Assembly: GCF_900155605.1 (NCBI RefSeq)
Contig: NZ_LT707420.1
Coordinates: forward strand, 93,685 to 157,684
Length of the DNA stretch: 64,000 bases
Reading direction: 5' to 3'
From: Actinomyces marseillensis
Lineage (GTDB): Bacteria; Actinomycetota; Actinomycetes; Actinomycetales; Actinomycetaceae
Shown: positions 47,349-63,333 of the stretch, in pieces
How positions within the stretch are numbered: the stretch's first letter is position 1
Layout of the letters: every line of letters begins with the position of its first letter
Position numbers and translations under genes: made by a program
Notes under the pieces: generated by a model
Seen by the model: the letters and a program-made list of their open reading frames with translations, nothing else
Databases searched by the model: none
Told to the model about the DNA's origin: nothing

Positions 47349-49508
47349 TTATCTCTCAACGACTAATGCTGAACGCGGAGCCAGGACCACGTGTCCCGTG
47401 CATTCACTTCCGCTGAGAAGATCTTTGCCCACAATCCCGCTCAGTTCAACTGCACGATCGGAATGGTTGAGGAGGAAGAGGAAGCCCTCGCGTTCCTGTG
47501 CCTCAACTCCTCGAGGAAGATCGGGGAACACGGGGAGAATTCGCGCGTAGCTCGCCCACATGCGTACAAGGACCGATCGCGAAAGTGCATCGAAATCGGC
47601 TGCGGCATACCACACCGAGCCCTGACCAACTCGGTTTCGGCTCAGTGCGCACGCTCCCGCTAGGTCAACTCCGCCGCCTCGGCCATCAAAGTAGGCCACG
47701 CACTCAACGCCGGCCGAGGAATTTCCTTCGCCGAGGCCTCGCCACTCATGTTCGCCCACGGGCACGATCTTTTCGGCCCAGCGTCCCGAGCGCAGGTCTT
47801 TGGCAGCGTCTCCAACCAGCTCGATGGTTCGCTTGAGAGCCTCGTTGTCGGTATCGATTCCGCACCAGTTCAGGGCAGCGGGAGTTTCTACGGCACCGGA
47901 AATCCTGTAAGCAGTGCTCTCGCGAGCATCGTAAGTGCGCCCCTGAGAGGGGCCGGTCAAGGTCGAGTGTTCGACAACCTTCACTCCGGTAAGGTCTGCA
48001 AGAGAGCCCAAGTACCCGCCCAAAATAGCGCCGCACTGGCTGTCCACAACGGCGCTCGGGGCGGTGATAACTACCTGCGAGCCGCGCTCGGCGGCAATGC
48101 GCAACGAGTGCGCCATATTGGAGTAGTCGATAAAGACTGCCGGCACAACAATGAGATCGTAGGAAGTGAAGTCGTTATCAACGCCCACAACATCGGTCGC
48201 AATTCCTGCTTCCCACAGGCTTTGATGCCAGGCTCGAGCAGGACCAAAGAATCCCCATGAGTCAAGACCGTTTTCACTGTTGATCGGCCCCAAGGCGAAG
48301 CCCCTGGCCCATTCGCTTTCCCAGTCGATGACGACAGCGGCGCGGGACGTCATACGTGAGCCTGCGACGGGCGACAGGCGCTTGAGAGCCTGTCCGGTTT
48401 CTACGACGTCCCTCCAGATCGGCGAGTTCTCACCCGAATGCGGGACCATTCCAGAGTGGAAGGTCTCCGAGCCTTTTGCGGATTGACGCCACTGGAATTG
48501 GAGGATTCCATCCGCACCGTGCGCCATGCGAGCAATGGACCACAGAAGGAATTGTCCGGGCCGCTTTGGGGAGTTCTGGGGACGCCACTGGACGGCACCG
48601 GGGGCTTGCTCCATGAGCAGCCAGGGGCTTCCCCCAGACAGGCCTCGCATGACGTCTCCCTGCCAAGCGATCTCGTGCGCACCTTGGGGGTCCGCAGGGT
48701 CCGGGTAGGAATCATCAGAGATCACATCAAGGCATGGTGCCCACGCGCGATAGTTGACGAAGGGGAAAGTCCCCATGAAGTTCGTGGTGATCGGGCGATC
48801 GCTGTAGCGACGGATTACGTCGCGCTCGTGAATCATCAGGTTTCGTAGCGCCCAGTCACTGAAACGACGCCAATCGAGCATCTGCGACGGGTTGTGGAAA
48901 GTCGGCATCGCACGCGGGGGCTGAATCTGCGCAATATCGGTGTAAGTCTGGGACCAAAATGCCGTTCCCCAGGCGTGATTGATCGCTTCGATAGTGCCGT
49001 AGCGCTCCAGCAGCCACTGACGGAAAGCTTGCGCAGATTCCTCGTCGAAGCTCTCCCAGGTATGGCAGCCATATTCGTTGGAAATGTGCCACATGACGAC
49101 GCCCGGGTGATCGCCGAAACGACGAGCCATGGCCTCGGTCAGCGCACAGGCCTTTTGGGAGAAAAGCGCGCTAGAAGGGTTGTACTGTTGGCGCGATCCA
49201 AAGCCCAAGCGCACGCCTCGAGAATCGACGGGAAGTGTCTGGGGATAGCGCTGCGCCATCCAGGCCGGAGGGGAAGCAGTCCCATTGGCCAGATCCACGC
49301 TAATGCCGGCATTGTGGAGCTGGTCAATGAGGTCTGCTAGCCAATCGAGGTCGTAGTGACCTTCTTCGGGTTCAAGGGATGCCCACGAGAAGATTCCCAG
49401 AGATATCAGAGTGACTCCGGCCTCGACCATGCGTTCAATGTCGCACAGGTTGGTCTCGCGGTCCCACTGTTCAGGGTTCCAATCGCCCCCGTAGGCAATC
49501 CCTTCCAT
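47349..49508 (-). CDS. Beta-galactosidase, glycoside hydrolase family 42, cytoplasmic
   Basis: Removes terminal beta-galactose from oligosaccharides. The 719-residue protein starts MEGIAYGGDWNPEQW, has TLISLGIFSWASLEPEEG, ISNEYGCH (acid/base Glu) and WLLMEQAPG (nucleophile Glu), the hallmarks of GH42. There is no signal peptide. ATG 49508 is preferred to an upstream start at 49646, which would lie inside the permease gene; AAAGGA is upstream. GH42 enzymes of bifidobacteria often act on beta-1,3/1,6-galactosides of milk or mucin type, consistent with its place behind the sugar importer. Confidence 0.93.
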   Translation of the reverse strand: MEGIAYGGDWNPEQWDRETNLCDIERMVEAGVTLISLGIFSWASLEPEEGHYDLDWLADLIDQLHNAGISVDLANGTASPPAWMAQRYPQTLPVDSRGVRLGFGSRQQYNPSSALFSQKACALTEAMARRFGDHPGVVMWHISNEYGCHTWESFDEESAQAFRQWLLERYGTIEAINHAWGTAFWSQTYTDIAQIQPPRAMPTFHNPSQMLDWRRFSDWALRNLMIHERDVIRRYSDRPITTNFMGTFPFVNYRAWAPCLDVISDDSYPDPADPQGAHEIAWQGDVMRGLSGGSPWLLMEQAPGAVQWRPQNSPKRPGQFLLWSIARMAHGADGILQFQWRQSAKGSETFHSGMVPHSGENSPIWRDVVETGQALKRLSPVAGSRMTSRAAVVIDWESEWARGFALGPINSENGLDSWGFFGPARAWHQSLWEAGIATDVVGVDNDFTSYDLIVVPAVFIDYSNMAHSLRIAAERGSQVVITAPSAVVDSQCGAILGGYLGSLADLTGVKVVEHSTLTGPSQGRTYDARESTAYRISGAVETPAALNWCGIDTDNEALKRTIELVGDAAKDLRSGRWAEKIVPVGEHEWRGLGEGNSSAGVECVAYFDGRGGGVDLAGACALSRNRVGQGSVWYAAADFDALSRSVLVRMWASYARILPVFPDLPRGVEAQEREGFLFLLNHSDRAVELSGIVGKDLLSGSECTGHVVLAPRSALVVER

Positions 49509-49521
49509 TCTCGCGTCCTTT

Positions 49522-50430
49522 CTATCCCTTGACGGAGCCGGCAGCCAGGCCCGATTGCCAGTACTTCTGCAAGCCAAGGAATAGCACGATGAGCGGCAAA
49601 ACGCCCAAGAGCGCGCCCAGCATGACTGCGCCCTTTTGAGGAGCAAAGTAACTCATCATTCCGTACAAGCCCAAAGTGACAGGCTTGAGTTCGGGAGTGG
49701 ATACCATCATCAAGGGCAAGAGGAAGTTGTTCCAGGTTGCCACGAAGATGAAGAGGAAGATCGTCACCATTGCCGGCGCCAGTAGACGCAAGACAATCGT
49801 GAAAAAGACTCGAGCTTCTGAGGCCCCATCGATGCGCGCGGCCTCGATGAGCTCTGTCGGAACCGAAGAATCCGCATAGACCCGGCCAAGGAACACACCG
49901 AAGGGAGACACACAGCTGGGAATGAGGATCGCCCAGACCGTATCGGTCAGACCCAGGTTATGGAAGACCACGTACAGAGGAATCGTGAGCAGGGCGACCG
50001 GCATCAGCAGTCCGGCCATAATCAAAGCCATCGAGACATTACGTCCCGGGAAAACAAACTTTGCCATCGCGTATCCTGCGGCAACCGAGATCAGGGTTCC
50101 AATGACGCCAGCAGTCGTTGAATAGAAGAGGGAGTTGAGCACCCAGCGCCAGAAGAGGCCTTGAGTCCAGCCCATAAGCTTCGTGTAGTTGTCCGCCAGC
50201 TCAAAGTGACCAAACCAGAAGCCATTAGTAGAAACGAGATCTGCGTTCGACTTCGTTGCCGAGAACATCACCCAGATGATCGGCAGGATGAAGTAAACCA
50301 TGGTGATCGTCAGCGCAACGATGGTGGCGATCCGAGCAAGCTTCTTGGGAGCAAGGGTGCGCGGGGGCATTCCTTCAATCGAAACGCGGTATTCGCGTCC
50401 GTCAGGCAGTGTGCGAGTGGGAGTTGTCAT
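49522..50430 (-). CDS. Sugar ABC transporter permease (MalG type)
   Basis: A 302-residue inner-membrane permease of the carbohydrate uptake-1 family, six hydrophobic segments. The EAA loop is ELIEAARIDGASEARVFFTIVLRLLAPA. Its ATG at 50430 overlaps the partner permease stop by four bases. Starts further up lie inside the partner gene. No ATPase gene is in the cluster, as in many actinobacterial systems that share one MsiK-like ATPase. Confidence 0.92.
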   Translation of the reverse strand: MTTPTRTLPDGREYRVSIEGMPPRTLAPKKLARIATIVALTITMVYFILPIIWVMFSATKSNADLVSTNGFWFGHFELADNYTKLMGWTQGLFWRWVLNSLFYSTTAGVIGTLISVAAGYAMAKFVFPGRNVSMALIMAGLLMPVALLTIPLYVVFHNLGLTDTVWAILIPSCVSPFGVFLGRVYADSSVPTELIEAARIDGASEARVFFTIVLRLLAPAMVTIFLFIFVATWNNFLLPLMMVSTPELKPVTLGLYGMMSYFAPQKGAVMLGALLGVLPLIVLFLGLQKYWQSGLAAGSVKG

Positions 50431-51359
50431 CGCAGAGTCTTCCTTTGCAAGAGCGCGTAGATCACGGCAAGTCCGCCAGCAACCAGTGCCATCACGATTG
50501 AGATTGCCGAGGCCGGGCCATCGCCACCGGGCGAGATAGTTCCGAACATGGTGTTGTAGGCCATCATCATCGGCGTGTAGGCATTGCCCATCCACCCATT
50601 TGCAGACTGCATAACTGCGGGTTCATTGAAGAGCTGAATTGTGCCGATGATGGAGAGCAAGACTGCCAGGAGGGCAGCTCCGGAGACCATAGGGATCTTA
50701 ATTTGGCGCACAATCTGCCAAGAGGAAGCGCCGTCGAGACGTGCGGCCTCGTACAGCTCATGGGGCACTGCTTGCAGCGCTGCCAGGAAGATCAGCATGT
50801 TGTAACCGGTGTAGGTCCACGTCGTCATATTTGCCATCGAGGCGAGGATTGGGGCGCCTGCGGCCATGAAGTCAATGTGGATTCCAAGGGAATCAAAGAA
50901 CTTAACGATCGGGGAAAGCTCAGGGGTGTAGATGTAGAGCCAGACCATTGCGGCAACAATGCCGGGGATTGCAAATGGCAGGAAGTAGCTCAGTCGGAAG
51001 ACACCAACGCGACGGATCAGGAATGAGTCCAAAACAAGAGCCAGAACAAGAGCCGAGATGATCATGATCGGGATCTGGAAGGCCGCATAAACAACGACTC
51101 GCCCCATGCCGGACCAGAATTGTCCGGACGTGATCACCATGGTGAAGTTTTCGAGGCCGACGAATTGATTTTTAAGTTCGCCGCCGCCGTACAGGCCTCC
51201 GCCACTTGCGACCTGACGGAAGAAGGACTGGTAGATTGCCACACAAATCGGAACGGCAAAAACCAAGAGGAACATAATGAAGAATGGGGCCATGAAGGCC
51301 CATCCGGTACGCGCATCGTGCCGCTCTCTGATACGCCGGTTTTGAATGTCTGACTGCAT
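50427..51359 (-). CDS. Sugar ABC transporter permease (MalF type)
   Basis: A 310-residue permease partner with hydrophobic segments from residue 20 onward and the EAA loop ELYEAARLDGASSWQIVRQIKIPM. It begins at ATG 51359, about 100 bases after the binding-protein gene; a hairpin fills part of the gap. With the MalG-type partner it forms the membrane channel for the glycan importer. Confidence 0.92.
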   Translation of the reverse strand: MQSDIQNRRIRERHDARTGWAFMAPFFIMFLLVFAVPICVAIYQSFFRQVASGGGLYGGGELKNQFVGLENFTMVITSGQFWSGMGRVVVYAAFQIPIMIISALVLALVLDSFLIRRVGVFRLSYFLPFAIPGIVAAMVWLYIYTPELSPIVKFFDSLGIHIDFMAAGAPILASMANMTTWTYTGYNMLIFLAALQAVPHELYEAARLDGASSWQIVRQIKIPMVSGAALLAVLLSIIGTIQLFNEPAVMQSANGWMGNAYTPMMMAYNTMFGTISPGGDGPASAISIVMALVAGGLAVIYALLQRKTLR

Positions 51360-51408
51360 GTATCAATCACCCTCGATTGCTGGCAGATTGTGGACTTTAA
51401 ACACGGTA

Positions 51409-51442
51409 GGGGTGTGGTTCCTCAGCGGAGAAACCACACCCC
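51409..51442 (-). terminator. Intra-operon hairpin between binding-protein and permease genes
   Basis: A perfect 11-base stem (51409-51419 with 51432-51442) lies just after the binding-protein stop. The minus strand beyond it has only a weak T run. Partial termination or 3'-end protection would raise binding-protein levels over permeases; the sialic acid operon has the same layout at 14522-14579. Confidence 0.7.
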
Positions 51443-51457
51443 CTCCGCGATTAGCGC

Positions 51458-52786
51458 TTACTCAGCGACGGGAAGGTTTCCGTCCTTGAGCGCCTTCACG
51501 GACTGCGTCTGAGCAGCCTTGAAGATGTCGATCACCTTGCCGGAGCCATCACCAGCTGCGGTTGCAGCCTTGGCCATGGGATCGCCGAGGGTCGAGAAGA
51601 AGGGGATGTAGGGGAAGTCGGGGGCCAGGTTGGCGTTTGCCTTCGACAGTTCAGCGAAGACATCCTGTCCACCGTAGAATTCCTTGACCGAATCCGGGGT
51701 CTTCATGGTGCCGGTCGTGGTTGCAACGACCAGGCCCTGGGAGACCAGAGCGTCAACCTGGGTGTTCAGCCAGTTGTTGAACTCCATGGCGCCCTTGGGG
51801 TTCGAGCAGCCCTTCATGACTGCAACGCCGGAACCGCCGTCGGGGCCGGTCAGCGCGCCCTTGCCGAAGTCAGGGAGCTGAGCAACTGCCCATTCACCCT
51901 TGTTGTCGGTCTTCTCCAGATCACCGGAGATGAGCGGTGCTTCCCATGCGGCACCGATGCTGCCGATCAGGGTCTTGTCGGTCAGAGCCTTTGTGAAGGA
52001 ATCTCCCCAGCGCTCTGCGACGAGAGTGGTCTTGTCATCGAGCATCGACTGCCAGAAGTCTGCCACGGTCTTGGCGGACGCATCGTCGATCTTGACGGTC
52101 CACTTATCGTTTTCAGCCTTGTACCAAACACCGCCTGCTGCAGCTGCCTGAGCGGACAGGCTGTAGCGCGACTCGTCAGCCTCGAAAGCAGAGATGTACT
52201 TGCCCTTAGCTGCTGCGATCTTGGCAGCGGCCTTGAACTCTTCGAGGTTGGTGGGAACCTTGATTCCCAGCTTCTCGAACTCAGCCTTGTTGTAGTAGTA
52301 AACAAGCGGGCCGGTGTCCTGGGGCAGGCCGTAGTACTTTCCACCCACGCCAACCTGCGAGAAGGCGCCAGCGGAGTAGTTGGCCTTGTACTCGTTGGCG
52401 TACTGGGTAACGTCTTCCAGCAGGCCCTTGGTGAACATCTCGGGGATTTCTGCATAGCCTAGCTGCGCCAAGCAAGGTCCGGAACCGGCCTTGACGTCGG
52501 TCTCGAGCTTCTTGATCATTTCGTTGGCCTTGCCATCGAACTTGACCGCCTCAACCGGGGTGTCAGGGTGCTCCTTGTTCCACTGCTCAGCGAGAGCCGA
52601 GATCTTGGTCATTCCCTCACCGTCCGGCAGACGGTGCAGGTAGGTGATGGTCGCTGCCTTATCAGCAGATGCCGAAGAGCTTGCGGTGCTGTCAGTCTTC
52701 GCGCCCGAACCCGAGCACGCAGTCAAACCCATCGCAGCAACTGACATGAGCGCAACAACGCTCATGGAGCGGCGTGACATGTGCAT
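51458..52786 (-). CDS. Extracellular sugar-binding lipoprotein (glycan ABC transporter)
   Basis: A 442-residue family 1 solute-binding lipoprotein. It has a short basic start (MHMSRRS), a hydrophobic stretch and the lipobox GLTAC followed by a Ser/Ala tether. The mature part has ITYLHRLPDGEGMTKISALAEQWNKEHP and GLPQDTGPLVYYYNKAEFEKLG, as in oligosaccharide-binding proteins. ATG 52786 is chosen since GGAGAGGG lies about eight bases ahead; ATG 52843 has none. The likely ligand, from context, is galacto-N-biose or lacto-N-biose; the bound sugar is not visible in the sequence. Confidence 0.9.
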   Translation of the reverse strand: MHMSRRSMSVVALMSVAAMGLTACSGSGAKTDSTASSSASADKAATITYLHRLPDGEGMTKISALAEQWNKEHPDTPVEAVKFDGKANEMIKKLETDVKAGSGPCLAQLGYAEIPEMFTKGLLEDVTQYANEYKANYSAGAFSQVGVGGKYYGLPQDTGPLVYYYNKAEFEKLGIKVPTNLEEFKAAAKIAAAKGKYISAFEADESRYSLSAQAAAAGGVWYKAENDKWTVKIDDASAKTVADFWQSMLDDKTTLVAERWGDSFTKALTDKTLIGSIGAAWEAPLISGDLEKTDNKGEWAVAQLPDFGKGALTGPDGGSGVAVMKGCSNPKGAMEFNNWLNTQVDALVSQGLVVATTTGTMKTPDSVKEFYGGQDVFAELSKANANLAPDFPYIPFFSTLGDPMAKAATAAGDGSGKVIDIFKAAQTQSVKALKDGNLPVAE

Positions 52787-52821
52787 GTTATTCCCTCTCC
52801 GTTGTGGGACGTTTACAAAGT

Positions 52822-52885
52822 TGACACCTTTTGTCAGCTTCATCCATTGCTCTCTTATGCTAACTCACAGAGAAGATGTCTGACA
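52822..52885 (-). promoter_or_regulatory. Regulatory region of the glycan transporter operon
   Basis: Upstream of the binding-protein start there is TGTCTGACA (52877-52885), the same core as in the sialic acid promoter at 16244-16254. A second inverted repeat, TGACA(5 bases)TGTCA, lies at 52822-52836. A possible -10, TAGCAT on the minus strand, lies between them (about 52860-52855). A common repressor for both glycan clusters is the simplest reading but is unproven. Confidence 0.45.
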
Positions 52886-52931
52886 CATTTTTAACCTGTG
52901 ACTATGCAATTAGTTGATTACGATTTGATAA

Positions 52932-55232
52932 CTAAAGAAGCTGACCTTTTCCCCAGTCAACCCAGCGTCCTTCACCTGCAGCCAATTCAACGAGGATTTG
53001 TCCGCCCTGGCCAGAAATCTCACTCGAACGGGGGGCATCTGCATCGTTATAAACGAATGCGAGTGCTGATTCTGGATACCAAGCAACTTCAACATCCGGG
53101 TTCGACGAGCACAGAACGCACTCCCACTGATCCTCAGCATGGGCTGCCCACATGATGGCGCGGTGAAGCAAACGACTATTCGCAGTCGACCATGTCAGAC
53201 CCGCAAGATAGACGCCGCGTCCGCCGCAGAAGTCATGAGCCGAAGCACGAACACTGCCGTGATCCATCACCAAAACGTCAGTTGCAGAGTCGGTAACGAC
53301 AACATCACCGGGATCTTCACCAAAGATGTAGTCCCCATCCAGATCAGCGGTGATGAAGTGCTCGCTCACCGGCTCCTCGTAGTGATCCTTGGACAGCGAC
53401 CACGAGATCTCCTGATCGACGCCCAAAACGTCAGAGAGCGCGAAGATGCTTCCGCGGCAGATTCCTCCGCGATCAGCATTTCCCTGCGTCCCTACCGAGG
53501 CCGTGGGCTGGCCAATACCAATGAAACCGCCACCGCGAGCAACGAAGCGTCGTAACGCGTCTTGGAGACGAAGATCCTCCCAGACATGCCCACCTGAGAA
53601 GGAAGTGTTGGCCGCGCCCGCATTAATGACGACATCCACGTCTTCGAGCGCCTTCATCCCACCTTCAATCACCTCGTCGAAGGACATGAAACGCACATCA
53701 AAGGGCAAGCCAGCAAGGGCTTCAATCACCCCGAGGTAGGTGTGAATCTGCTTGTACCACAGGGCGTGGGCGACCATGTGGGTCTGCCAAGTACGCAACT
53801 TACCCCACGCATTCAAGACGGCAACGCGCACGGGTGCACATGCAGGCTTCTCCCCTCCCGTGGCCTCGTGAAGGGAACGGAACTCTCCAAGGATTTCCTC
53901 CACGCGGTCGATGAACTCGGGGAACTTGAGTGCCAAGGAAAGGTAACCGCCGTAGCCCATGCGGTCTAGGGGACTGCGGACAATAGCGCGGCGAGCGGTG
54001 CGCCACGATTCATTGGCCTCGCCCAGGGGATCACCGCCCTCACGGAAGACATCGGGGAAGAAGTAGGGAAGGAAGCGCCCCTCGGTGTAGCGCACACCGG
54101 GGATATCGGAAATCATGCGGCAGGTCGCGGCCGAGCCGACAGATCCAACAACCGCATCCATCTTGATCGAGGGGAAATAAGGACCGTAGGGCTCCATGCC
54201 GATCCAGTTATCGCCAAGGAACATCATGGCCTCGCGGCCCTCCTCGTGGACCTGACGAACCAGTTCACCGGCCTTTTGGGCAACTCGCTTGGAAGTGAAA
54301 TCGATCCAGTCTTTGAAGACCGGAGTGGGAGTGCGGAAAGGACAGTTGTACCAGCCGCCATCAACGAAATCCTCGGGGGTCAGCGCGTAGCCGTATTCCT
54401 CTTCAAACTCTTCCATTGCCGGAATCGAAACCGAGGCGGAGTAGCCGAACCAATCGACGTAGCGTTCACGGCCTCGGGAGTCAAAGGCCAAAGTGAAGTG
54501 ATAGAAGAAGGTCGTGAAACGAACCACGTCCACCTGGGGGTTGGCTTTAAGCCAGATCGCCAAGGCATCCTTGACATGCTCCCAGGTGCGCGGGAAGGCC
54601 ACGTCGAAGGGACGTTCTTTGACGCGTCCCTCCTCAAGCGCCCAGTCGTTCGTCAAATAGTTGTACATCTGGGTCGAATCCCAAACTTGCACTGCGAAGA
54701 AGCTCACGGTGTAGACGTGGAAAGGCTTGGGGGAATGAATCGTAACAACGGCGCTTCCGGCGTTCTTGGGCAGGTCCCCGACGATCGGGACGGGATCGAC
54801 GATCGGCTGGGCCGGAACATCCTCAACGCTCCACTGTGAAGGATCGACAACCTCACCGCTGGTTCGGTCAATCACCTGCCACCAACGTGAGGTATCACAC
54901 TGAGTATCCGGACGGAACTGAGCCTGGAACCAGCCCTCCATCACGTCGATACGCAAAGGGCCATTTTCCGGCGCAGTATGGGCATTTGAGGACAAATATT
55001 GGTGAATGCGTTCGCCTTCACTTTGGTCTGCCCATTCTTCGTCGCCGCGAGCGGGAAAGTACGTGCTGTAAACCTTGGCAAAGGCGCGATCAACCCATTC
55101 GGGCAATTCGGTTCCATCTGAATTACGGACAGCGTCGGCGCCAAGCCGCTCAACGAGGGAGCGAACCTCTTCGTCAATTCCTCGTTCGATAGGGAGAGTC
55201 AGGCGGCCCAGTCGCGTCGTTTTGTCAGTCAT
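52932..55232 (-). CDS. lnpA: 1,3-beta-galactosyl-N-acetylhexosamine phosphorylase (galacto-N-biose/lacto-N-biose phosphorylase, GH112)
   Basis: Splits Gal-beta-1,3-GalNAc (mucin core 1) or Gal-beta-1,3-GlcNAc (milk type) with phosphate to galactose-1-phosphate plus GalNAc or GlcNAc; cytoplasmic. The 766-residue protein begins with GRLTLPIERGIDEEVRSLVE and GADAVRNSDGTELPEW, the start typical of the family, and contains DNWIGMEPYGPYF, a C-terminal FIGIGQPTAS region and a glutamine-amidotransferase-like fold segment. ATG 55232 has GGAG six bases upstream. In Bifidobacterium the gene sits with nahK, galT and galE; here it is instead paired with a tagatose-6-P pathway, which argues for GalNAc as the sugar released. 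Preference between GNB and LNB cannot be read from the sequence. Confidence 0.93.
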   Translation of the reverse strand: MTDKTTRLGRLTLPIERGIDEEVRSLVERLGADAVRNSDGTELPEWVDRAFAKVYSTYFPARGDEEWADQSEGERIHQYLSSNAHTAPENGPLRIDVMEGWFQAQFRPDTQCDTSRWWQVIDRTSGEVVDPSQWSVEDVPAQPIVDPVPIVGDLPKNAGSAVVTIHSPKPFHVYTVSFFAVQVWDSTQMYNYLTNDWALEEGRVKERPFDVAFPRTWEHVKDALAIWLKANPQVDVVRFTTFFYHFTLAFDSRGRERYVDWFGYSASVSIPAMEEFEEEYGYALTPEDFVDGGWYNCPFRTPTPVFKDWIDFTSKRVAQKAGELVRQVHEEGREAMMFLGDNWIGMEPYGPYFPSIKMDAVVGSVGSAATCRMISDIPGVRYTEGRFLPYFFPDVFREGGDPLGEANESWRTARRAIVRSPLDRMGYGGYLSLALKFPEFIDRVEEILGEFRSLHEATGGEKPACAPVRVAVLNAWGKLRTWQTHMVAHALWYKQIHTYLGVIEALAGLPFDVRFMSFDEVIEGGMKALEDVDVVINAGAANTSFSGGHVWEDLRLQDALRRFVARGGGFIGIGQPTASVGTQGNADRGGICRGSIFALSDVLGVDQEISWSLSKDHYEEPVSEHFITADLDGDYIFGEDPGDVVVTDSATDVLVMDHGSVRASAHDFCGGRGVYLAGLTWSTANSRLLHRAIMWAAHAEDQWECVLCSSNPDVEVAWYPESALAFVYNDADAPRSSEISGQGGQILVELAAGEGRWVDWGKGQLL

Positions 55233-55383
55233 TGTCACTCCATTGTGTTGATATCTAGGCTCTTTGCGCGCAGGGAACAACTTTGCGGACTTTTTCAGGC
55301 AGTCCCAAGTTATCTCCTTCTTGGTACGATATTACAAGCACACCGACGTGGTGATGCACATCCTCTACACACTGGAGACACCG

Positions 55384-56256
55384 ATGTCCCTTACCTCAGA
55401 AGAAATTAACAGCCAGCCCGAGCTGTGGCGTCGAGTTTGCGAAGTTCCCACCGATGCTCTTCCCAAAGATGGCGAATCAATTGCGGTGATCGGATGCGGA
55501 ACCTCATGGTTCATCGCCCAGGCCTACACCGTTGCTCGTGAGCGCCAGGGCAAGGGACTCTCGGATGCCTTCACTGCAACCGAATTCCCCTGGGATCGTT
55601 CCTACGATCGAGTCGTCTGCCTGTCGCGTTCAGGCACAACAACCGAAATCATCGACATTCTGCGCGGACTGAAAGAACGCGGTGTTCCCAATGTCTTGAT
55701 CACCGCTGTTGGCAACGGTCCGGCAACCCCCTTTGCTGACAATGAGGTGGTTTTGGACTTCGCAGACGAAGAGTCCGTCGTCCAGACTCGTTTTGCCACC
55801 ACCGCTTTGGCTTACTTCCGCCACAGCCTCGGAGATGATATTGCGAGCGCCGCAGATGACGCTCAGCGCGCACTTGAGTGCGAAATCCCCCAGCGCTGGG
55901 TGGATGCAGAGCAGATCACCTTCCTTGGCACCGCGTGGACCATTGGCCTGGCCAACGAGGCGGGCCTCAAGTTGCGCGAAGCCTCGCAGTCGTGGACCGA
56001 GGTTTACCCCGCCATGGAATACCGCCACGGCCCCATTTCGATCGCACAACCCGGCCGTCTCACCTGGGTTTTCGGCGCGGTTCCCGAAGGAATGGCCGAT
56101 CAGGTTGCTGCAACCGGCGCTGAATTGGTGACCTTCGATGGCGATCCTATGGCTCACCTGGTCGTTGCCCAGCGCCTGGCAGTTGCTCGCGCCGAGGCTC
56201 GAGGCCTGAACCCCGATACTCCGCGCCACCTGACCCGCTCGGTGATCCTCAAGTGA
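55384..56256 (+). CDS. SIS-domain sugar isomerase/deaminase (AgaS-like)
   Basis: A 290-residue double SIS-domain protein: SIAVIGCGTSWFIAQAYTVA and VVCLSRSGTTTEIIDIL in the first domain, ITFLGTAWTIGLANEAGLKLREAS and EYRHGPISIA in the second, as in AgaS and the GlmS isomerase half. AgaS converts galactosamine-6-phosphate to tagatose-6-phosphate with loss of ammonia. The kinases and aldolase that follow fit that role; a glucosamine-6-P deaminase-like role is the alternative. ATG 55384 is chosen because GGAG lies ahead and homology begins there. It starts the plus-strand arm, divergent from lnpA with 151 bases between. Confidence 0.82.
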   Translation: MSLTSEEINSQPELWRRVCEVPTDALPKDGESIAVIGCGTSWFIAQAYTVARERQGKGLSDAFTATEFPWDRSYDRVVCLSRSGTTTEIIDILRGLKERGVPNVLITAVGNGPATPFADNEVVLDFADEESVVQTRFATTALAYFRHSLGDDIASAADDAQRALECEIPQRWVDAEQITFLGTAWTIGLANEAGLKLREASQSWTEVYPAMEYRHGPISIAQPGRLTWVFGAVPEGMADQVAATGAELVTFDGDPMAHLVVAQRLAVARAEARGLNPDTPRHLTRSVILK

Positions 56257-57173
56257 ACACTGCGGACCAGCAGCTGGCCATCGGGATCGATGTCGGCGGC
56301 ACCACTATTAAGGGGGTGCTCGCCGACACCCGAGGCAACATCATTGCCACTTCCGAGGCCGTCGCTACTCCGCGCACCGGTGCCGAAGACGTCGTTGCCG
56401 CAGCCGCGCGACTGGCCCGCACTCTGCGCGAGGATTCGCCCGAGGCGCCGGTTGGCGCATGCGTCCCTGGGATTATTGACGAAGAACACGGGATCGGTAT
56501 TTTTTCCGCCAACCTAGGGTGGAAAGATGCCCCACTGAGCGAGATGCTCTCCCAGGCCCTGGGTTCTTTTGTCCCCCTGGGACATGACGTGCGTTCGGGC
56601 GCTTTGGCCGAGGCGCTGTGGGGAGTTCGGTGTTCCTCATGCCTCTACGTTGCGGTGGGGACAGGAATCGCCTCGGGACTTGTCATCAACTCCCATCTGG
56701 CGCCTGGCGCCCCATGGGCAGGAGAAATCGGTCAGATCCCTGTCCCCCACCCGGACAATCCCTCAGAAATGGTCCCCCTCGAGCGCGTCGCCTCAGCTTC
56801 GGGAATTGCGCGACGTGCAATCGAAGCCGGGATCCTTCCCCAGGGCTCGGGCGCGCGCGAGGTCGAAGAACTCGCCAACTCCCATGGGGATTCGTCTCGC
56901 CTCGCCCAAGAGATTCTTTCGACCTCGATGAGCCTTCTGGGTGAGGTTCTGGCAACGGTATGTCACCAGGTTGGGGCGATTCCCGTCGTTCTTGGCGGCG
57001 GACTGTGCCGCGGCGGCTCTCTTGTCTACGATCCACTGCGCAGTGCTCTGGACAAAGGCTGCACCGTGATGCCCGCTCCCCCGGTTCTCACCGCGGCACT
57101 TGGCTCTTCCTCGCAGGCGCTGGGCGCCGCGGCGCTTGCCTTCCAAAGCCACGGAATCGAGGTCGAATCATGA
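56253..57173 (+). CDS. ROK family sugar kinase (candidate GalNAc kinase), without zinc cysteines
   Basis: A 306-residue ROK protein with the phosphate loop AIGIDVGGTTIKGVLAD, DVRSGALAEALWG, VGTGIASGLV, and VVLGGGLCRGG near the C terminus. The zinc motif of typical ROK kinases (CxCGxxGC) is absent; the equivalent stretch reads GQIPVPHPDNPSEM. It starts at GTG 56253, overlapping the agaS-like stop (GTGA). From context it should phosphorylate GalNAc at C6 to feed deacetylation and AgaS. Glucokinase or N-acetylglucosamine kinase activity cannot be excluded. Confidence 0.82.
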   Translation: MNTADQQLAIGIDVGGTTIKGVLADTRGNIIATSEAVATPRTGAEDVVAAAARLARTLREDSPEAPVGACVPGIIDEEHGIGIFSANLGWKDAPLSEMLSQALGSFVPLGHDVRSGALAEALWGVRCSSCLYVAVGTGIASGLVINSHLAPGAPWAGEIGQIPVPHPDNPSEMVPLERVASASGIARRAIEAGILPQGSGAREVEELANSHGDSSRLAQEILSTSMSLLGEVLATVCHQVGAIPVVLGGGLCRGGSLVYDPLRSALDKGCTVMPAPPVLTAALGSSSQALGAAALAFQSHGIEVES

Positions 57174-58096
57174 TCTGGACATTCACACCGAATCCGGCCC
57201 TGGACATTACGTGGCAGGCCCCCGATCAGACTCGGGGACAGGTTCATCGCATTACCGAGTATTCCCAGCGTCCGGGAGGCAAGGGACTGAATGTCTCTCG
57301 CGTTTTGGAGCAGCTTGGTGTACCCAACCATGCGACGGGCTTCCTCGGCGGGACCACGGGACAAGCCATCGCCTCGTTAATGGAGGAAATGACCACTCAG
57401 GTCACGACGCATTGGATCGACGTTCCCGTTCAAACGCGCCGGTCAATCGCCATGATCGACGGCGAAGCGACGGTGTACAACGAGTCAGGTTTTTCGCTTC
57501 CTTCTCAATCCTGGGAAGAGATGCGCGAGCTCTTGAATGCTTCCTTAAGCGCCTCGGATGTTCTGGTTGTTTCCGGTTCTCTTCCCGGGAACACAAGTTT
57601 TGAGTCTCTTGAGCCAATTCTTGAGTCTGCCCGCGAGCGCGGATGCCGGATCATCTTGGACACCTCGGGGCCTTCTTTGGTTCAGTGCGCACACTGGGCT
57701 GATGTTTTAAAGCCCAACCACCACGAGCTCCTCGATGCGACCGGCGCGTCTTCCATTGAGGAAGGGGCACGTACCTTGCTCGAGCTTGGCCCCACATGGG
57801 TGTGTGTCTCACGCGGAGAAGAAGGGATGGACCTTTTCTCCGCCCACAGCCACTGGCATGCCGAGGCGGGCGTTGTCCTTGAAGGAAATCCGACCGGTGC
57901 GGGTGATGCTTGCGTTGCCTCCTTGGCCCGTTCGCTTGCTCAGGCCGGGGATGACCTTGAATCCATCATTTCCACCGCAATTGCCGAGGCCGTCGCTACC
58001 TCGGCCGCCGCAGTGACTATGCCGGTCGCCGGAGAAATCGATTGTCCGCTTCGCGAGGAATTACTCGCACGTATTACCCCCATTCGTTTGTCTTAA
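57170..58096 (+). CDS. PfkB-family hexose-phosphate kinase (tagatose-6-phosphate kinase / 1-phosphofructokinase type)
   Basis: A 308-residue ribokinase-fold enzyme. The start IWTFTPNPALDITWQ and the signature QRPGGKGLNVSRVLEQLG are those of the LacC/FruK group, and NPTGAGDACVASL carries the catalytic Asp. It should phosphorylate tagatose-6-P to tagatose-1,6-bisphosphate (LacC role) or fructose-1-P. The following aldolase and preceding AgaS-like gene favour the tagatose reading. The ATG at 57170 overlaps the ROK stop (ATGA). Upstream extensions of the frame lie within the ROK gene. Confidence 0.88.
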   Translation: MIWTFTPNPALDITWQAPDQTRGQVHRITEYSQRPGGKGLNVSRVLEQLGVPNHATGFLGGTTGQAIASLMEEMTTQVTTHWIDVPVQTRRSIAMIDGEATVYNESGFSLPSQSWEEMRELLNASLSASDVLVVSGSLPGNTSFESLEPILESARERGCRIILDTSGPSLVQCAHWADVLKPNHHELLDATGASSIEEGARTLLELGPTWVCVSRGEEGMDLFSAHSHWHAEAGVVLEGNPTGAGDACVASLARSLAQAGDDLESIISTAIAEAVATSAAAVTMPVAGEIDCPLREELLARITPIRLS

Positions 58097-58118
58097 ATTC
58101 ACAAGAAAGTAGGTCACA

Positions 58119-58955
58119 ATGCTTGCTGATACCGCTGTACTCGCACGCGAGTGCGCCGCGCGCAAGGTTGGCCTTGCCGCTTTCAATGTGGTCCTTCTCG
58201 ACCACGCCGAGGCCTTCGTTCAGGCCGCTGAAAACACCGATCTGCCGCTGGTCCTGCAGCTGTCACAAAACGCAGTGAAGTACCACGGCGGCCGTCTGCG
58301 CCCCCTCGGGCGGGCTCTCCTTGAACTCGCAGAAGCCTCGTCCGCGCAAGTTTCAGTGCACCTGGACCACGCAGAAGACACCAACCTCTGCCGCGAGGCC
58401 ATCGAGCTCGGATTCACCTCGATCATGTACGACGGCTCTAAGCTCCCCGATGCACAAAACCGTGAAACCACCGCTGAAATTACGGCTTTTGCGCACGAGC
58501 ACGGCGTGAGCGTTGAAGCGGAACTCGGCGAGGTGGGCGGCAAGAACGGCGTCCACGATCCTTCTGCACGCACCGATCCCCATGACGCGGCACAGTTTGT
58601 TGCCGACACCGGCGTAGATCTTCTTGCTGTCGCAGTGGGCTCCTCACACGCCATGGCAACTCGTGAGGCGGTCCTCGATAACGACCTGATTTCCGCAATT
58701 CACCAGGCAGTTCCGGTTCCCCTGGTACTTCACGGTTCTTCGGGCGTACCCGACGAAGGCATGGTTCAGGCCATTCGTGCAGGGATGACAAAGATCAACG
58801 TCTCTACACACTTGAATGTTGTCTTCACCGCTGGAGTTCGCGAGATCCTCAACGAGAATCCATCCTTGGTTGATCCGCGCAAGTACGTTGGCCCGGCAAC
58901 TCGTTTGGTTCAAGAAGAAGTTGAGCGCCTCATGCGCTTGTACGCCCAGGTCTAA
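58119..58955 (+). CDS. Class II aldolase, tagatose/fructose-bisphosphate type (GatY/KbaY-like)
   Basis: A 278-residue zinc-dependent class II aldolase. Zinc and substrate residues are in SVHLDHAED (first His motif), a VEAELGEVGG stretch, HAMATREA and LHGSSG (second His region), and KINVSTHLN. It should split tagatose-1,6-bisphosphate to dihydroxyacetone phosphate and glyceraldehyde-3-phosphate. Fructose-bisphosphate is a possible alternative substrate; context favours tagatose. It has AAGAAAG-like Shine-Dalgarno bases ahead of ATG 58119 and lies 22 bases after the kinase. The operon ends at a terminator at 59012. Confidence 0.88.
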   Translation: MLADTAVLARECAARKVGLAAFNVVLLDHAEAFVQAAENTDLPLVLQLSQNAVKYHGGRLRPLGRALLELAEASSAQVSVHLDHAEDTNLCREAIELGFTSIMYDGSKLPDAQNRETTAEITAFAHEHGVSVEAELGEVGGKNGVHDPSARTDPHDAAQFVADTGVDLLAVAVGSSHAMATREAVLDNDLISAIHQAVPVPLVLHGSSGVPDEGMVQAIRAGMTKINVSTHLNVVFTAGVREILNENPSLVDPRKYVGPATRLVQEEVERLMRLYAQV

Positions 58956-59011
58956 TAACTGAGCGCTTTTCCTCGCCGCCCAACGTTTGGAATGCGCGTG
59001 CGGGTGACGAC

Positions 59012-59040
59012 GATGCCCTCCCCAAATCGGGGAGGGCATC
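59012..59040. terminator. Hairpin between convergent aldolase and GH20 genes
   Basis: A perfect 12-base stem (59012-59023 with 59029-59040) with a five-base loop. It sits ten bases before the GH20 stop and about 55 after the aldolase stop, so it likely serves both convergent genes. T runs are weak on both sides. Confidence 0.75.
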
Positions 59041-59049
59041 ACCTTGTTG

Positions 59050-60414
59050 CTACTTGATGTACCAGCCGCGGCCTCGCCACAGCGCCTCAAGACCTGCGAG
59101 ACGCTCGAGGAAGTCCTCCCAGCTTCCACGGGGACCACCAGCCCAGGCGACCTCAGCAAGGCCCGCTAAGCGCGGCAGGAGCATTTCCCACACATCTTTT
59201 TCGCGACGGAGGGTCTCACTCCACAGACAGGCCTCGACGCCTTCGATCCCTTCACGATCCACGCCTTCGCAGATCTTCTCTGGATCCCAATCCCACGCAT
59301 TCTTCAGAGGAAGAATACCGGCCCAGGTGATACCGAGCTTTTGTTCGGGGTATTCCTTCATATCAAAGTAGGCCTTGGGGCCGGGCGACATGATTGCACG
59401 CACGCCGCGCGCAACTGCGCGAGCGATAGAGTCGCCCTCGAGGTCGTCATGCCAGACCTGCACGAGGTCTCCTTCGCCCAGAAGATCCGCTGCTTCCTCC
59501 CATGCCAAAGCGCGCTTGCCCAATGCATGGATGCGTTCAATCTGGCTGCCAACGATGATCGGGTAATCGCCCTCTGCGGTCGAGAAGGACTCATCCCCAC
59601 CGATGTGGATTCCCGCGGGAGAGAAGGGAGCAAGGGTCTGGACGATTGCTTCGAGGAATGCTTGCGTCGCCGGGGCCTTGGTGGACAGCGTTGAAAAGCC
59701 TACTTCTGTGCCCTCATAGAGTGGGGGGCATACGCCGTCGGAGTTAAGACCTTCAATAGCGTGAAGCGCTGCGTTGACGTGCCCCGGGATATCGATCTCG
59801 GGAATAATCGCAATCATCCGCGAGCGCGCTTCTTCGACCAACGTTTGATAGTCCTCGAGGCTGTAGTATCCGCCTTCTTCCCCGCCAACCGCACAATCAG
59901 AAGAGCGCTCGATGAGCTCGGGGAACTGTGGAATTTCAATACGCCAGCCCTGATCGTCACTGAGGTGCAGATGCAAGATATTTAGCCCCAGCTCGCTCAT
60001 CGCATCCATGACACGCACGATCGTGGGAACACCAAAGAAATGGCGAGAGACATCAATATGCAGGCCGCGATGCTTGTATGCGGGGTAGTCAAAAATTTTC
60101 ACAGCGACGGGCTCGTGGTGATGATTGGCGATCGCCAAGGTATTCAGCCTTCTTAGGCCTCGCGAAAGTCCAAGTTCGCTGATCGCACTCACCTGCGCCG
60201 CACCGTTGGACAGGTTCAAGAGGTAGGCCTCGCTGCGCTGCCAGCCGGCTGGGAGCTCGCAGGGGGCGACTGCGGCCTCGAATTCTTCTTCGGTACACAG
60301 GACAACCGAGGGGCTAATTTCTGCCCATGTTGCATCAGCGGGGTGGGGTTGTGCTTCTTCAATGAAGACTGGAAGAGGGACAAGTCCGGGAATTACGGAC
60401 AAAGAGGAGGACAT
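59050..60414 (-). CDS. Beta-N-acetylhexosaminidase, glycoside hydrolase family 20, cytoplasmic
   Basis: Removes terminal beta-GlcNAc or beta-GalNAc from oligosaccharides by substrate-assisted catalysis. The 454-residue protein has HRGLHIDVSRHFFGVPTI, LHLHLSDDQGWRIEI, EIDIPGHVNAALHA, HIGGDES (the catalytic Asp-Glu pair), LAWEEAAD, and AYFDMKEYPEQKLGITWAG. No signal peptide or anchor is visible. ATG 60414 is preferred to the TTG at 60417; GGAG lies upstream. It faces the aldolase arm and probably supplies HexNAc monosaccharides from imported glycans. Confidence 0.92.
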   Translation of the reverse strand: MSSSLSVIPGLVPLPVFIEEAQPHPADATWAEISPSVVLCTEEEFEAAVAPCELPAGWQRSEAYLLNLSNGAAQVSAISELGLSRGLRRLNTLAIANHHHEPVAVKIFDYPAYKHRGLHIDVSRHFFGVPTIVRVMDAMSELGLNILHLHLSDDQGWRIEIPQFPELIERSSDCAVGGEEGGYYSLEDYQTLVEEARSRMIAIIPEIDIPGHVNAALHAIEGLNSDGVCPPLYEGTEVGFSTLSTKAPATQAFLEAIVQTLAPFSPAGIHIGGDESFSTAEGDYPIIVGSQIERIHALGKRALAWEEAADLLGEGDLVQVWHDDLEGDSIARAVARGVRAIMSPGPKAYFDMKEYPEQKLGITWAGILPLKNAWDWDPEKICEGVDREGIEGVEACLWSETLRREKDVWEMLLPRLAGLAEVAWAGGPRGSWEDFLERLAGLEALWRGRGWYIK

Positions 60415-61707: not shown

Positions 61708-63333
61708 GTGAGAATTCACTTAGGAACGCGATCCTCCCACAGGGCGCCGTCGTATCGACAGGCTCCCCGGGTTTCGCGCGCCCTGATTCTCCTGACATCG
61801 GCAGCAATCGGTTCATCTTTCACGGTCATGTCCCTGCCGTGGGCACCTGCCCTTGCAGATGTGGATCTCTTCCCCTCAACGACCGTCTCAGTAGCTCCGG
61901 GCAATGGGCATATGAGCGCAGACAAGACCGACGAGGTTTACGCTGCCGCTCCTTCAGCTGATTCAACAGAGCCGGCTCAGACTTCGCGTACTGCTTCTAT
62001 CGGGACTTCTTCCGACGCCGTTGTCTTGGACGGGGACTCCGAACTCGGGAGGCGATTCGCGCGTACTCCCTACGAAAAGGCAGAGATCGTTGTCGAAGGC
62101 GCTGAGTTCGCACCCGAAGAAAAGCTCCCAAACCAGACTCCCGCAGTGACTTTGGACGAGCTTGACCCCGAGCCGACCCCTCAGGGCGATCCTTCTATTG
62201 GTGATTTCACCGGTCACGAAGGCCAGACTTGGGCCGAATCCCATGCAATTCCGTCGGCTAATGCGACCTCCATCAAAGAAATCGACGAGCTGAATTCGAT
62301 CCCCACGATTGACTCCAGCCTTTCGACTCCGGAAATTCTCGTCGCTTCGGGTGAGATCCGGACAATGACTTTTGAACTCAGCAATGTCGGTAACGACGTT
62401 CGCGAGCTCGAAATTGAAGGTGTTTTCTCCAGTAAGGCGCCGGGTGCCCAGACCTTGACCTGGACCCTTGAATGCACGACGGATGGCGGAGCAAGCTGCC
62501 CGAACTTCGCTGATGAGCGTTCCGCTGCTTTTACCTCCGATAAGGAAGTTCCTCTCTTCCACTCGGTGGTCAATATGCCTCGGGATTCAAAGATTTCGAT
62601 CGTCGCACGCATTCGCCAGAGCGCGCCCAGCTGCTCGCCAGATTCGTCTAGCGAAACAACGACTAAGTTCCACTGGAAGCGTCTGAGTAGTGACGAATCG
62701 CGCTGGACCGAGCTGGAACTCAGTGGCCAGCTGAGCTGCCCCGCGCCCGTCCCTTCAACGACGCCGACTCCGTCTCCCTCTGCGTCTGTAAGCACGTCAG
62801 CGCCTACACCGACTGCAACTGCTACGCCAACGAAGAAGGCAACCCCCACCGCCTCCCCGAATACGCGCGTTCCAGCAACAGTTTCCCCGACTCATCAGAA
62901 TCCGGGGCGTGTGATCGTCCAGCCCAGGCCTCGTCCGAATACGGACCACCGTACTCCGGCTCCCGCCCGCGTCGTTCGAGTGTATTCACCACAGTCGCCG
63001 AACCGTCCTAGCGCTCAGAATTCTTCGCGAAACAACGGGGCGACTGCGAACCGCTCGCAATCTCCTCAGCAGAACAGCAATCGTGCGGCTCAGCGCAGCA
63101 CCAACGCCCCTATCGCACCGATCAGTCCCGCGACTGCCGCTCCTTCAGCTTCGGCCGCATCTAATTCCACTGATGCCGGCGTAGCAAATCCCCCGTCCAG
63201 CTACGCATTCAACGCCGATGGTCGCCGCGGTGGCCTCATGAGCGATGTTGAAGCCAACAGTGCCGTCGCGGTTGCCGCGCTTCTTGTCACTGCTGCGGCT
63301 GGGGCTCTTGCAACTTTCCACAAGGGAAAGTAA
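61708..63333 (+). CDS. Secreted, Pro/Thr/Ser-rich membrane-tethered surface protein
   Basis: A 541-residue protein of unknown function. An N-terminal signal peptide is likely (basic start, then ALILLTSAAIGSSFTVMSLP, Ala-x-Ala at PALADV). Residues about 210-340 look like a folded domain (TPEILVASGEIRTMTFELSNVG onward, possibly immunoglobulin-like, with Cys pairs near TLECTTDGGASCPNF and SAPSCSPDSSS). Residues about 345-490 form a low-complexity linker of Pro, Thr, Ser, Ala and Asn. One hydrophobic helix (AVAVAALLVTAAAGALATF) and a basic tail (HKGK) end it. No LPxTG motif precedes the helix, so sortase anchoring is not supported. The GTG start has AAAGGG upstream. I do not recognise a family. 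Confidence 0.8.
   Translation: MRIHLGTRSSHRAPSYRQAPRVSRALILLTSAAIGSSFTVMSLPWAPALADVDLFPSTTVSVAPGNGHMSADKTDEVYAAAPSADSTEPAQTSRTASIGTSSDAVVLDGDSELGRRFARTPYEKAEIVVEGAEFAPEEKLPNQTPAVTLDELDPEPTPQGDPSIGDFTGHEGQTWAESHAIPSANATSIKEIDELNSIPTIDSSLSTPEILVASGEIRTMTFELSNVGNDVRELEIEGVFSSKAPGAQTLTWTLECTTDGGASCPNFADERSAAFTSDKEVPLFHSVVNMPRDSKISIVARIRQSAPSCSPDSSSETTTKFHWKRLSSDESRWTELELSGQLSCPAPVPSTTPTPSPSASVSTSAPTPTATATPTKKATPTASPNTRVPATVSPTHQNPGRVIVQPRPRPNTDHRTPAPARVVRVYSPQSPNRPSAQNSSRNNGATANRSQSPQQNSNRAAQRSTNAPIAPISPATAAPSASAASNSTDAGVANPPSSYAFNADGRRGGLMSDVEANSAVAVAALLVTAAAGALATFHKGK

Follow-up and report, generated by a model that had tools for sequence, protein, structure and literature searches.

How can a bacterium without the bifidobacterial partners of galacto-N-biose (GNB) phosphorolysis use the amino sugar that this reaction releases? 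The question is raised by a gene cluster at positions 47349 to 60414 of a 64,000-nucleotide stretch of the Actinomyces marseillensis genome (contig NZ_LT707420.1, forward-strand positions 93,685 to 157,684), here termed the window. One arm of the cluster encodes a sugar importer and a phosphorylase of glycoside hydrolase family 112 (GH112). The divergent arm encodes an SIS-domain protein, two predicted sugar kinases of the ROK and PfkB families and a class II aldolase. We assign a probability of about 0.7 to the reading that GNB and lacto-N-biose (LNB) are imported and split by GH112, and that N-acetylgalactosamine (GalNAc) is burned via tagatose phosphates with an SIS enzyme other than AgaS. 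The cluster is a real, conserved and recurrent variant of known sugar pathways, assembled from known parts with a non-orthologous enzyme at the key step, and is not a new kind of system.

Import and phosphorolysis

The solute-binding protein of the cluster (SBP_bac_1 family; 51458..52843, minus strand) is encoded next to GH112 and matches 2z8d, the binding protein of a GNB/LNB transporter, at 452 bits (E 1.7e-134). The next solved structures are 7vfr (435 bits) and 7vfq (433 bits), and all others score 98 bits or less. Two ATP-binding cassette (ABC) sugar permeases with PF00528 (BPD_transp_1) domains follow on the same strand, one of MalF type (50427..51359) and one of MalG type (49522..50430), the latter adjoining the binding protein in relatives. 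The phosphorylase (52932..55232, minus strand) reaches 857 bits against TIGR02336, where the cut-off is 560.3, and 676 bits against the lacto-N-biose phosphorylase 3wfz. According to the passages cited, characterised GH112 members take GNB, LNB or both, and both disaccharides are substrates of those from Bifidobacterium longum and Roseburia (PMC8950772, PMC7335108). These matches support the predicted role of the cluster in GNB/LNB import and phosphorolysis, as originally proposed. A GNB/LNB-like importer (55-65% identical) also lies a few kilobases from an SIS arm in Microbacterium luticocti (L121, 17971-20846), where the locus ends.

The proposed route

In the route that we favour, the binding protein and two permeases would import Gal-beta-1,3-N-acetylhexosamine disaccharides, which GH112 and phosphate would convert to galactose-1-phosphate and GalNAc, or N-acetylglucosamine (GlcNAc). 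The ROK kinase would phosphorylate GalNAc, and a NagA-like protein encoded elsewhere would deacetylate GalNAc-6-phosphate. The SIS protein would deaminate and isomerise the resulting galactosamine-6-phosphate (GalN-6-P) to tagatose-6-phosphate, the PfkB kinase would convert this to tagatose-1,6-bisphosphate, and the class II aldolase would yield dihydroxyacetone phosphate and glyceraldehyde-3-phosphate. Longer imported oligosaccharides might be trimmed by the GH42 and GH20 enzymes of the cluster. Galactose-1-phosphate probably enters metabolism through UTP-dependent GalU and an epimerase, although this is the weakest step of the scheme and a guess. Gene content, families, conservation and the additional phosphofructokinase (PFK) and aldolase genes are observed, and we infer every substrate assignment after import.

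The tagatose reading is preferred because the SIS family sits in DeoR/SIS-ROK-NagA-PfkB-aldolase operons of other Actinomycetota, and because additional PFK and aldolase genes occur in the host. The original prediction had described a catabolon that converts GalNAc to tagatose-1,6-bisphosphate. It is borne out insofar as the cluster has a private kinase-aldolase pair beside these further genes and related clusters carry an AgaR-like DeoR regulator, but the tagatose step itself is conjectural.

Conservation of the arrangement

The family Actinomycetaceae was surveyed in 213 genomes, with the SIS protein called at E below 1e-70. GH112 matches occur in 92 genomes (86 over the cut-off) and the SIS protein in 54, and 43 genomes hold both. 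GH112 is thus found in 43 of the 54 SIS genomes and in 49 of the 159 others, where about 23 joint occurrences would be expected under independence (Fisher p 4e-10, ignoring relatedness). The two genes lie within 10 kilobases (kb) of each other in 39 of the 43 genomes with both and within 5 kb in 34; the exceptions to the 10 kb limit are G014 (11.8 kb), G126 (20 kb), G130 and G132. A synteny check in this family had been proposed along with the suggestion that the combination is unusual. The check finds the opposite for Actinomycetaceae, in which the SIS arm is often joined to GH112.

Forty GH112 loci were fetched, a choice meant to represent the genus and most of the family's other genera, and 20 of them contain the SIS gene. 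In three (L057, L058 and L059) the entire block is preserved, with gene order and flanking genes unchanged, and L056 shows the same with an added DeoR gene. The gene arrangement is conserved and does not reflect chance. Among named SIS loci the closest are those of Actinomyces sp. ph3 (SIS 95% identical), an Arcanobacterium metagenome-assembled genome and Schaalia suimastitidis (75% each). Within the genus of the window, 13 of 14 SIS genomes have the aldolase gene no more than 3 kb from the SIS gene; the fourteenth, G172, is a fragmented assembly with only one aldolase.

A scan of named genomes with an SIS alignment found at least 585 relatives, of which the best 80 were taken; 12 and 10 of these loci have less than 5 kb on one or the other side. 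Within 5 kb of the SIS gene, an aldolase is encoded in 66 of the 80 loci, a DeoR regulator in 65, a PfkB kinase in 46, a NagA-like protein in 30 and a ROK kinase in 29. Eight loci carry all five (L093 from Longispora, L105, L123, L129, L137, L138 from Pseudonocardia, L139 and L158 from Curtobacterium), as would be expected for a GalNAc pathway. GH112 is present in the fetched flanks of eight of the 80 loci, all from Actinomycetaceae by name, a family to which Mobiluncus, Arcanobacterium and Winkia belong. Outside the family, 394 genomes drawn evenly from the class yielded two GH112 matches besides the window's own, one of them weak, and the 20 kb that surround the strong match (L163) contain no match to the other query proteins at E 1e-5.

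Kinases and aldolase

The proposed GalNAc kinase (56253..57173, plus strand) is a ROK protein by PF00480 (121 bits). It has GEIGQ where other ROK proteins have GEIGH, and lacks the CxCGxxGC motif, which binds zinc in ROK kinases. A comparison took the top ROK match from each of 48 loci and then left out four named copies of loci already counted and the unrelated ROK protein of L047. The 22 Actinomycetaceae loci show GE[IVL]GQ in 21 cases and GELGM in one, and CxCGxxGC in none. Of the 21 loci from other organisms with the same SIS family, 17 have His at this position and three have Gln, and in one it is unread. Most ROK proteins that adjoin the SIS family outside Actinomycetaceae carry both GEIGH and CxCGxxGC.

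The proposed tagatose-6-phosphate kinase (57170..58096, plus strand) belongs to the PfkB family of hexose-phosphate kinases (133 bits), with 222 bits against TIGR03168 (cut-off 216.4); it scores below the cut-offs of the models for 1-phosphofructokinase (213 bits, cut-off 292) and LacC (117, cut-off 409.55). The class II ketose-bisphosphate aldolase that might cleave tagatose-1,6-bisphosphate (58119..58955, plus strand) matches PF01116 at 278 bits and TIGR00167 at 223 (cut-off 215.6). It is 33-34% identical to E. coli KbaY and GatY (E about 1e-44) and 22% identical to FbaA (E 6e-7). A narrow literature query found no paper on aldolase stereospecificity.

PFK genes are present elsewhere in the host genome, which is 2.0 Mb in size and 99.96% complete. 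The 765-amino-acid open frame at G000:C2:898584-900596 encodes an unusual double phosphofructokinase, with two PFK domains. About 0.8 kb past the end of the window (G000:C2:158512-159498), the host encodes another class II aldolase, which has 344 amino acids and is probably glycolytic.

The SIS protein and its substrate

The SIS protein (55384..56253, plus strand; PF01380, 46 bits) is the proposed deaminase/isomerase that forms tagatose-6-phosphate from GalN-6-P. It had been described as AgaS-like, an identity that we reject: it scores 29 bits against TIGR02815, far below the cut-off of 529, and is 23% identical to E. coli AgaS at E 0.03. NagS, an SIS-domain GlcNAc-6-phosphate dehydratase of Streptomyces, was also set aside on its description, which in the passages cited places it nearer MurQ (PMC12680351).

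Several observations weigh against the tagatose route. The solved structures nearest to the SIS protein by profile are 2cb0 and 2dec from Pyrococcus (95 and 91 bits) and 1j5x from Thermotoga (78 bits), with 2cb0 and 1j5x titled glucosamine-6-phosphate (GlcN-6-P) deaminases; AgaS-type structures score lower (3odp 44, 3i0z 38 and 3c3j 25 bits). The nearest solved relative of the PfkB kinase is a fructose-1-phosphate kinase (115 bits), followed by a tagatose-6-phosphate kinase (106 bits). The aldolase is nearest to fructose-bisphosphate aldolases among solved structures, at 176 bits versus 140 for 1gvf AgaY. The kinase and the aldolase score under the cut-offs of the tagatose-specific models and over those of the subfamily models TIGR03168 and TIGR00167. 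The NagA-like protein is unlinked (L002) and stays below the NagA cut-off (196.6 versus 225.65 bits). The sole PF01182 protein of the host (E 8.8e-24) is taken to be a 6-phosphogluconolactonase rather than NagB, which leaves the genome with no clear NagB. No regulator gene, DeoR or other, is found among the cluster genes. Finally, the SIS arm is missing from 49 of the 92 GH112 genomes, including one of the same genus (L060).

The tagatose arm had also been called complete, which does not hold for the cluster: family scans find no deacetylase gene in the block, and the NagA-like gene lies elsewhere. According to the passage cited, NagA from Streptomyces coelicolor acts on GalNAc-6-phosphate with about a tenth of its efficiency on GlcNAc-6-phosphate (PMC12680351).

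The SIS protein belongs to an SIS family of its own, whose sequence is closer to GlcN-6-P deaminases than to AgaS. It also stays below the curated cut-offs of the SIS-type deaminase models, GlmD (79 versus 580 bits) and NagB_SO3506 (24 versus 430). An AlphaFold model (pLDDT 85.6) gives Z scores of 22.9 to 27.4 against GlcN-6-P deaminases, about 25 to 26 against GlmS and 25.3 to 25.8 against AgaS; the fold is undecisive because all three fit. With the SIS-type deaminases (archaeal GlmD, TM0813 and NagB-II) the protein shares this fold and the Glu and His of GlmS E488 and H504. The residues aligned with these two and with GlmS K485 are kept in all 100 SIS loci (95 distinct sequences). The protein differs from these deaminases in its C-terminal loop and in its clustering with a ketose-phosphate-type kinase and aldolase. 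The position of E. coli GlmS Lys603 in this loop is Arg in all 100 loci, whereas the five best-matching chains, of which three are titled GlcN-6-P deaminase and two are unassigned, have Lys. No Lys occurs there in E. coli AgaS, for which the alignment gives Gln, or Arg if a gap is shifted. The Arg is a hint, not proof, that the family is set apart from GlcN-6-P deaminases.

The main rival to GalN-6-P as the substrate is a GlcN-6-P or dual-specificity deaminase. The SIS protein may serve GlcN-6-P here because the host has no clear NagB. By the PF01182 criterion NagB is absent from 19 of the 54 SIS genomes, that of the window included, and present in 35, compared with 67 of the 159 genomes without SIS. 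A role as a general NagB replacement is unsupported, since NagB is commoner in SIS genomes than in the others.

In its dual form, the rival holds that the enzyme converts GalN-6-P to tagatose-6-phosphate and GlcN-6-P to fructose-6-phosphate, such that one cluster handles GNB and LNB in genomes that lack NagB. The presence of a NagA-like protein in a host without clear NagB fits this proposal, as does the acceptance of both disaccharides by the B. longum and Roseburia phosphorylases in the accounts cited above (PMC7335108, PMC8950772). However, NagB is retained beside the SIS protein in 35 of 54 genomes, which suggests that the latter is usually insufficient for GlcN-6-P, and we regard dual specificity as rather unlikely.

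Unlikely also is the narrower form, in which a GlcN-6-P deaminase of the GlmD or NagB-II kind makes the cluster a system for LNB and GlcNAc, with PfkB and the aldolase merely boosting the flow of fructose phosphates. Such deaminases are the best-scoring models and structures for the SIS protein, 18 other SIS genomes share with the host the lack of a clear NagB, and the nearest solved relatives of PfkB and the aldolase act on fructose phosphates. Yet this route would yield fructose-6-phosphate and make a private kinase and aldolase needless, whereas these genes recur beside SIS in the named loci (66 of 80 for the aldolase, 46 of 80 for PfkB) and the aldolase is nearly constant at that place in the genus (13 of 14). 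The invariant Arg at the GlmS K603 position and the 35 SIS genomes that also have NagB speak against it as well.

The 49 genomes with GH112 but without SIS, together with 11 of the 54 SIS genomes that lack GH112, indicate two modules that are often but not always joined. That the arms are mere neighbours, with GH112 serving one sugar and the SIS-aldolase arm another such as free GalNAc or galactosamine, would agree with this separability but is very improbable, given that 39 of 43 genomes with both hold them within 10 kb and that GH112 acting on GNB releases GalNAc.

Exchange of downstream arms

The original prediction was correct that the bifidobacterial NahK/GalT arm is missing. The cluster genes and scanned neighbours include no NahK-type kinase of the APH family, and GalT is not found in the host genome at the sensitivity used: PF01087 has no match there (six of 14 controls are positive), and neither has the GalT of locus L048 as query, which matches its source genome G195 and G060 but not five further relatives.

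Other members of the family have such an arm. After GH112, L048 encodes an APH-family kinase and GalT (731 bits to its best NCBIfam model, UDP-glucose--hexose-1-phosphate uridylyltransferase; cut-off 865), and L047 has this pair as well, with the kinase beside GH112. In L065 (genome G060) the APH kinase adjoins GH112 and GalT is encoded at another place in the genome. Locus L060 (G151), from the window's own genus, keeps GH42, the importer, GH112 and GH20, and is missing SIS, ROK, PfkB and the aldolase. At about 11274, its GH112 adjoins a kinase homologous to that of L048 (57% identical), an apparent arm swap within one genus. APH is the kinase family of NahK, and by family and place the APH kinases beside GH112 are putative NahK proteins.

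A third arrangement is seen in L049, L050 and L051, where the SIS arm comes with a DeoR regulator, a nucleoside triphosphate (NTP) transferase and a galactokinase-type GHMP kinase, the latter two of which lie between the phosphorylase gene and that arm. All three genes have matches in L090, a named locus from Winkia neuii. The transferase and GHMP kinase of these four loci possibly provide a route for galactose-1-phosphate that does not use GalT. With a NahK-like arm in L047, L048, L060 and L065 and the NTP transferase and GHMP kinase in L049-L051, one importer-phosphorylase core therefore carries differing downstream arms.

For galactose-1-phosphate in the host itself, four PF00483 proteins are encoded, of which the sole likely uridylyltransferase candidate is GalU-like (269 bits, cut-off 326.8). 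The UDPGP family has no match in the host genome, but no control was positive either, so its absence is not established. The NTP transferase of the Winkia-type cluster likewise has no match, in a search without a positive control.

Regulation

Of the 20 SIS-bearing loci of the family, 15 have a homologue of the L055 DeoR gene. Against E. coli AgaR, three of the encoded proteins show identities of 31, 36 and 33%, and that of L055 scores 172 bits against the NCBIfam AgaR model (cut-off 260) and 174 against a haloarchaeal GlpR model (cut-off 300). TGATTR/YAATCA boxes were counted in the 200 bases upstream of SIS in 15 loci. All ten loci with a DeoR gene have one to five boxes (P below 0.05 in eight), and none of the five without it has any. 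The predicted association of boxes with the DeoR gene is suggestive only, because the motif was chosen from the same sequences. The 200 bases upstream of SIS in the window contain no box. Among the clusters with a DeoR gene, boxes are repeated in L042, L050, L051, L052, L055, L068, L073 and L074.

Comparison with known systems

The Bifidobacterium lnp cluster, outlined in part in the passages cited (PMC6109692), comprises a binding protein, permeases, LnpA, NahK, GalT and GalE. The window shares the binding protein, two permeases and GH112 with it. It differs in having no NahK, GalT or epimerase genes in the locus, and in their place SIS, ROK, PfkB and aldolase genes. The Aga pathway, represented by agaK, agaAII and agaS of Shewanella (PMC2996990, in the portion cited) and agaS-kbaY of E. 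coli, is built on the same logic, in which a kinase and a deacetylase act before a deaminase/isomerase, a ketose-phosphate kinase and a class II aldolase, and the DeoR regulators of related clusters resemble AgaR. In contrast, the window's SIS protein is not an AgaS orthologue, there is no phosphotransferase system (PTS), the deacetylase is unlinked and the pathway is fed by a phosphorylase.

Lacticaseibacillus casei is described in the cited part of PMC6109692 as using GNB with a tagatose route and different enzymes. Its gnb cluster likewise serves both GNB and LNB, and the legend of the pathway figure names GalNAc and tagatose; it has a PTS and the GH35 phospho-beta-galactosidase GnbG, whereas the window has an ABC importer with GH112 and GH42. 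Ravcheev and Thiele 2017, in the portions cited, already counted LnbABC-LnbP together with an AgaS/AgaA GalNAc pathway in gut genomes (PMC5583593). Their AgaS is domain cd05010, whereas the window's SIS protein lies far under the AgaS cut-off of another model, TIGR02815. A search of titles and abstract openings, with supplements and most subscription papers outside its reach, found no paper on GH112 with an SIS arm in Actinomycetaceae.

Organisation of the locus

Gene re-calling and family profile scans find all of the originally named genes (GH112, the importer, GH42, the divergent arm and GH20) with open frames and strong family matches. On the minus strand, the order of transcription is GH112, solute-binding protein, two permeases and GH42. 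A divergent intergenic region (55233..55383) without a regulator gene separates GH112 from the plus-strand arm, in which SIS, ROK, PfkB and the aldolase are tightly spaced. The next gene, again on the minus strand, encodes GH20. The GH42 beta-galactosidase (47349..49511 with its stop codon, minus strand) matches PF02449 at 465 bits and GH42-type beta-galactosidase structures, and the GH20 beta-N-acetylhexosaminidase (59050..60414, minus strand) matches PF00728 at 229 bits. No signal peptide is evident by eye on either. Starts were set by eye from homologue starts and upstream sequence for GH42 (49511), the distal permease (50430), GH112 (55232), SIS (55384), PfkB (57170) and GH20 (60414).

The cluster is flanked on one side by genes for an enolase-superfamily protein and a thiamine pyrophosphate enzyme and on the other by a gene for an enoyl-CoA hydratase family protein, which are read as men genes. 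An open reading frame of 541 amino acids at 61708-63330 has no Pfam match, is rich in Pro, Ser and Thr, and has an N-terminal signal-like and a C-terminal hydrophobic segment; it probably encodes a surface protein. Frames of 541 to 551 amino acids occupy the equivalent place in L057 to L059.

Implications

The choice between the readings turns on one fact, the substrate of the SIS protein. We consider it fairly probable that this protein is the founder of an additional family of GalN-6-P deaminase/isomerases, independent of AgaS and spread across Actinomycetota, that enables a tagatose route for GalNAc. In Actinomycetaceae, the family would be joined to GNB phosphorolysis and to a ROK kinase without the usual zinc-type motif, with the downstream arm swapped between NahK and tagatose types even within a genus. 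The proposal gives a function to a widespread SIS family and, if true, means that annotation seeking AgaS alone misses GalNAc use in such genomes. It would provide a natural case of one bacterial family that keeps a disaccharide phosphorylase and exchanges the amino-sugar pathway downstream. It also predicts the way in which host-associated members of the Actinomycetaceae would use mucin core-1 and type-1 milk sugars.

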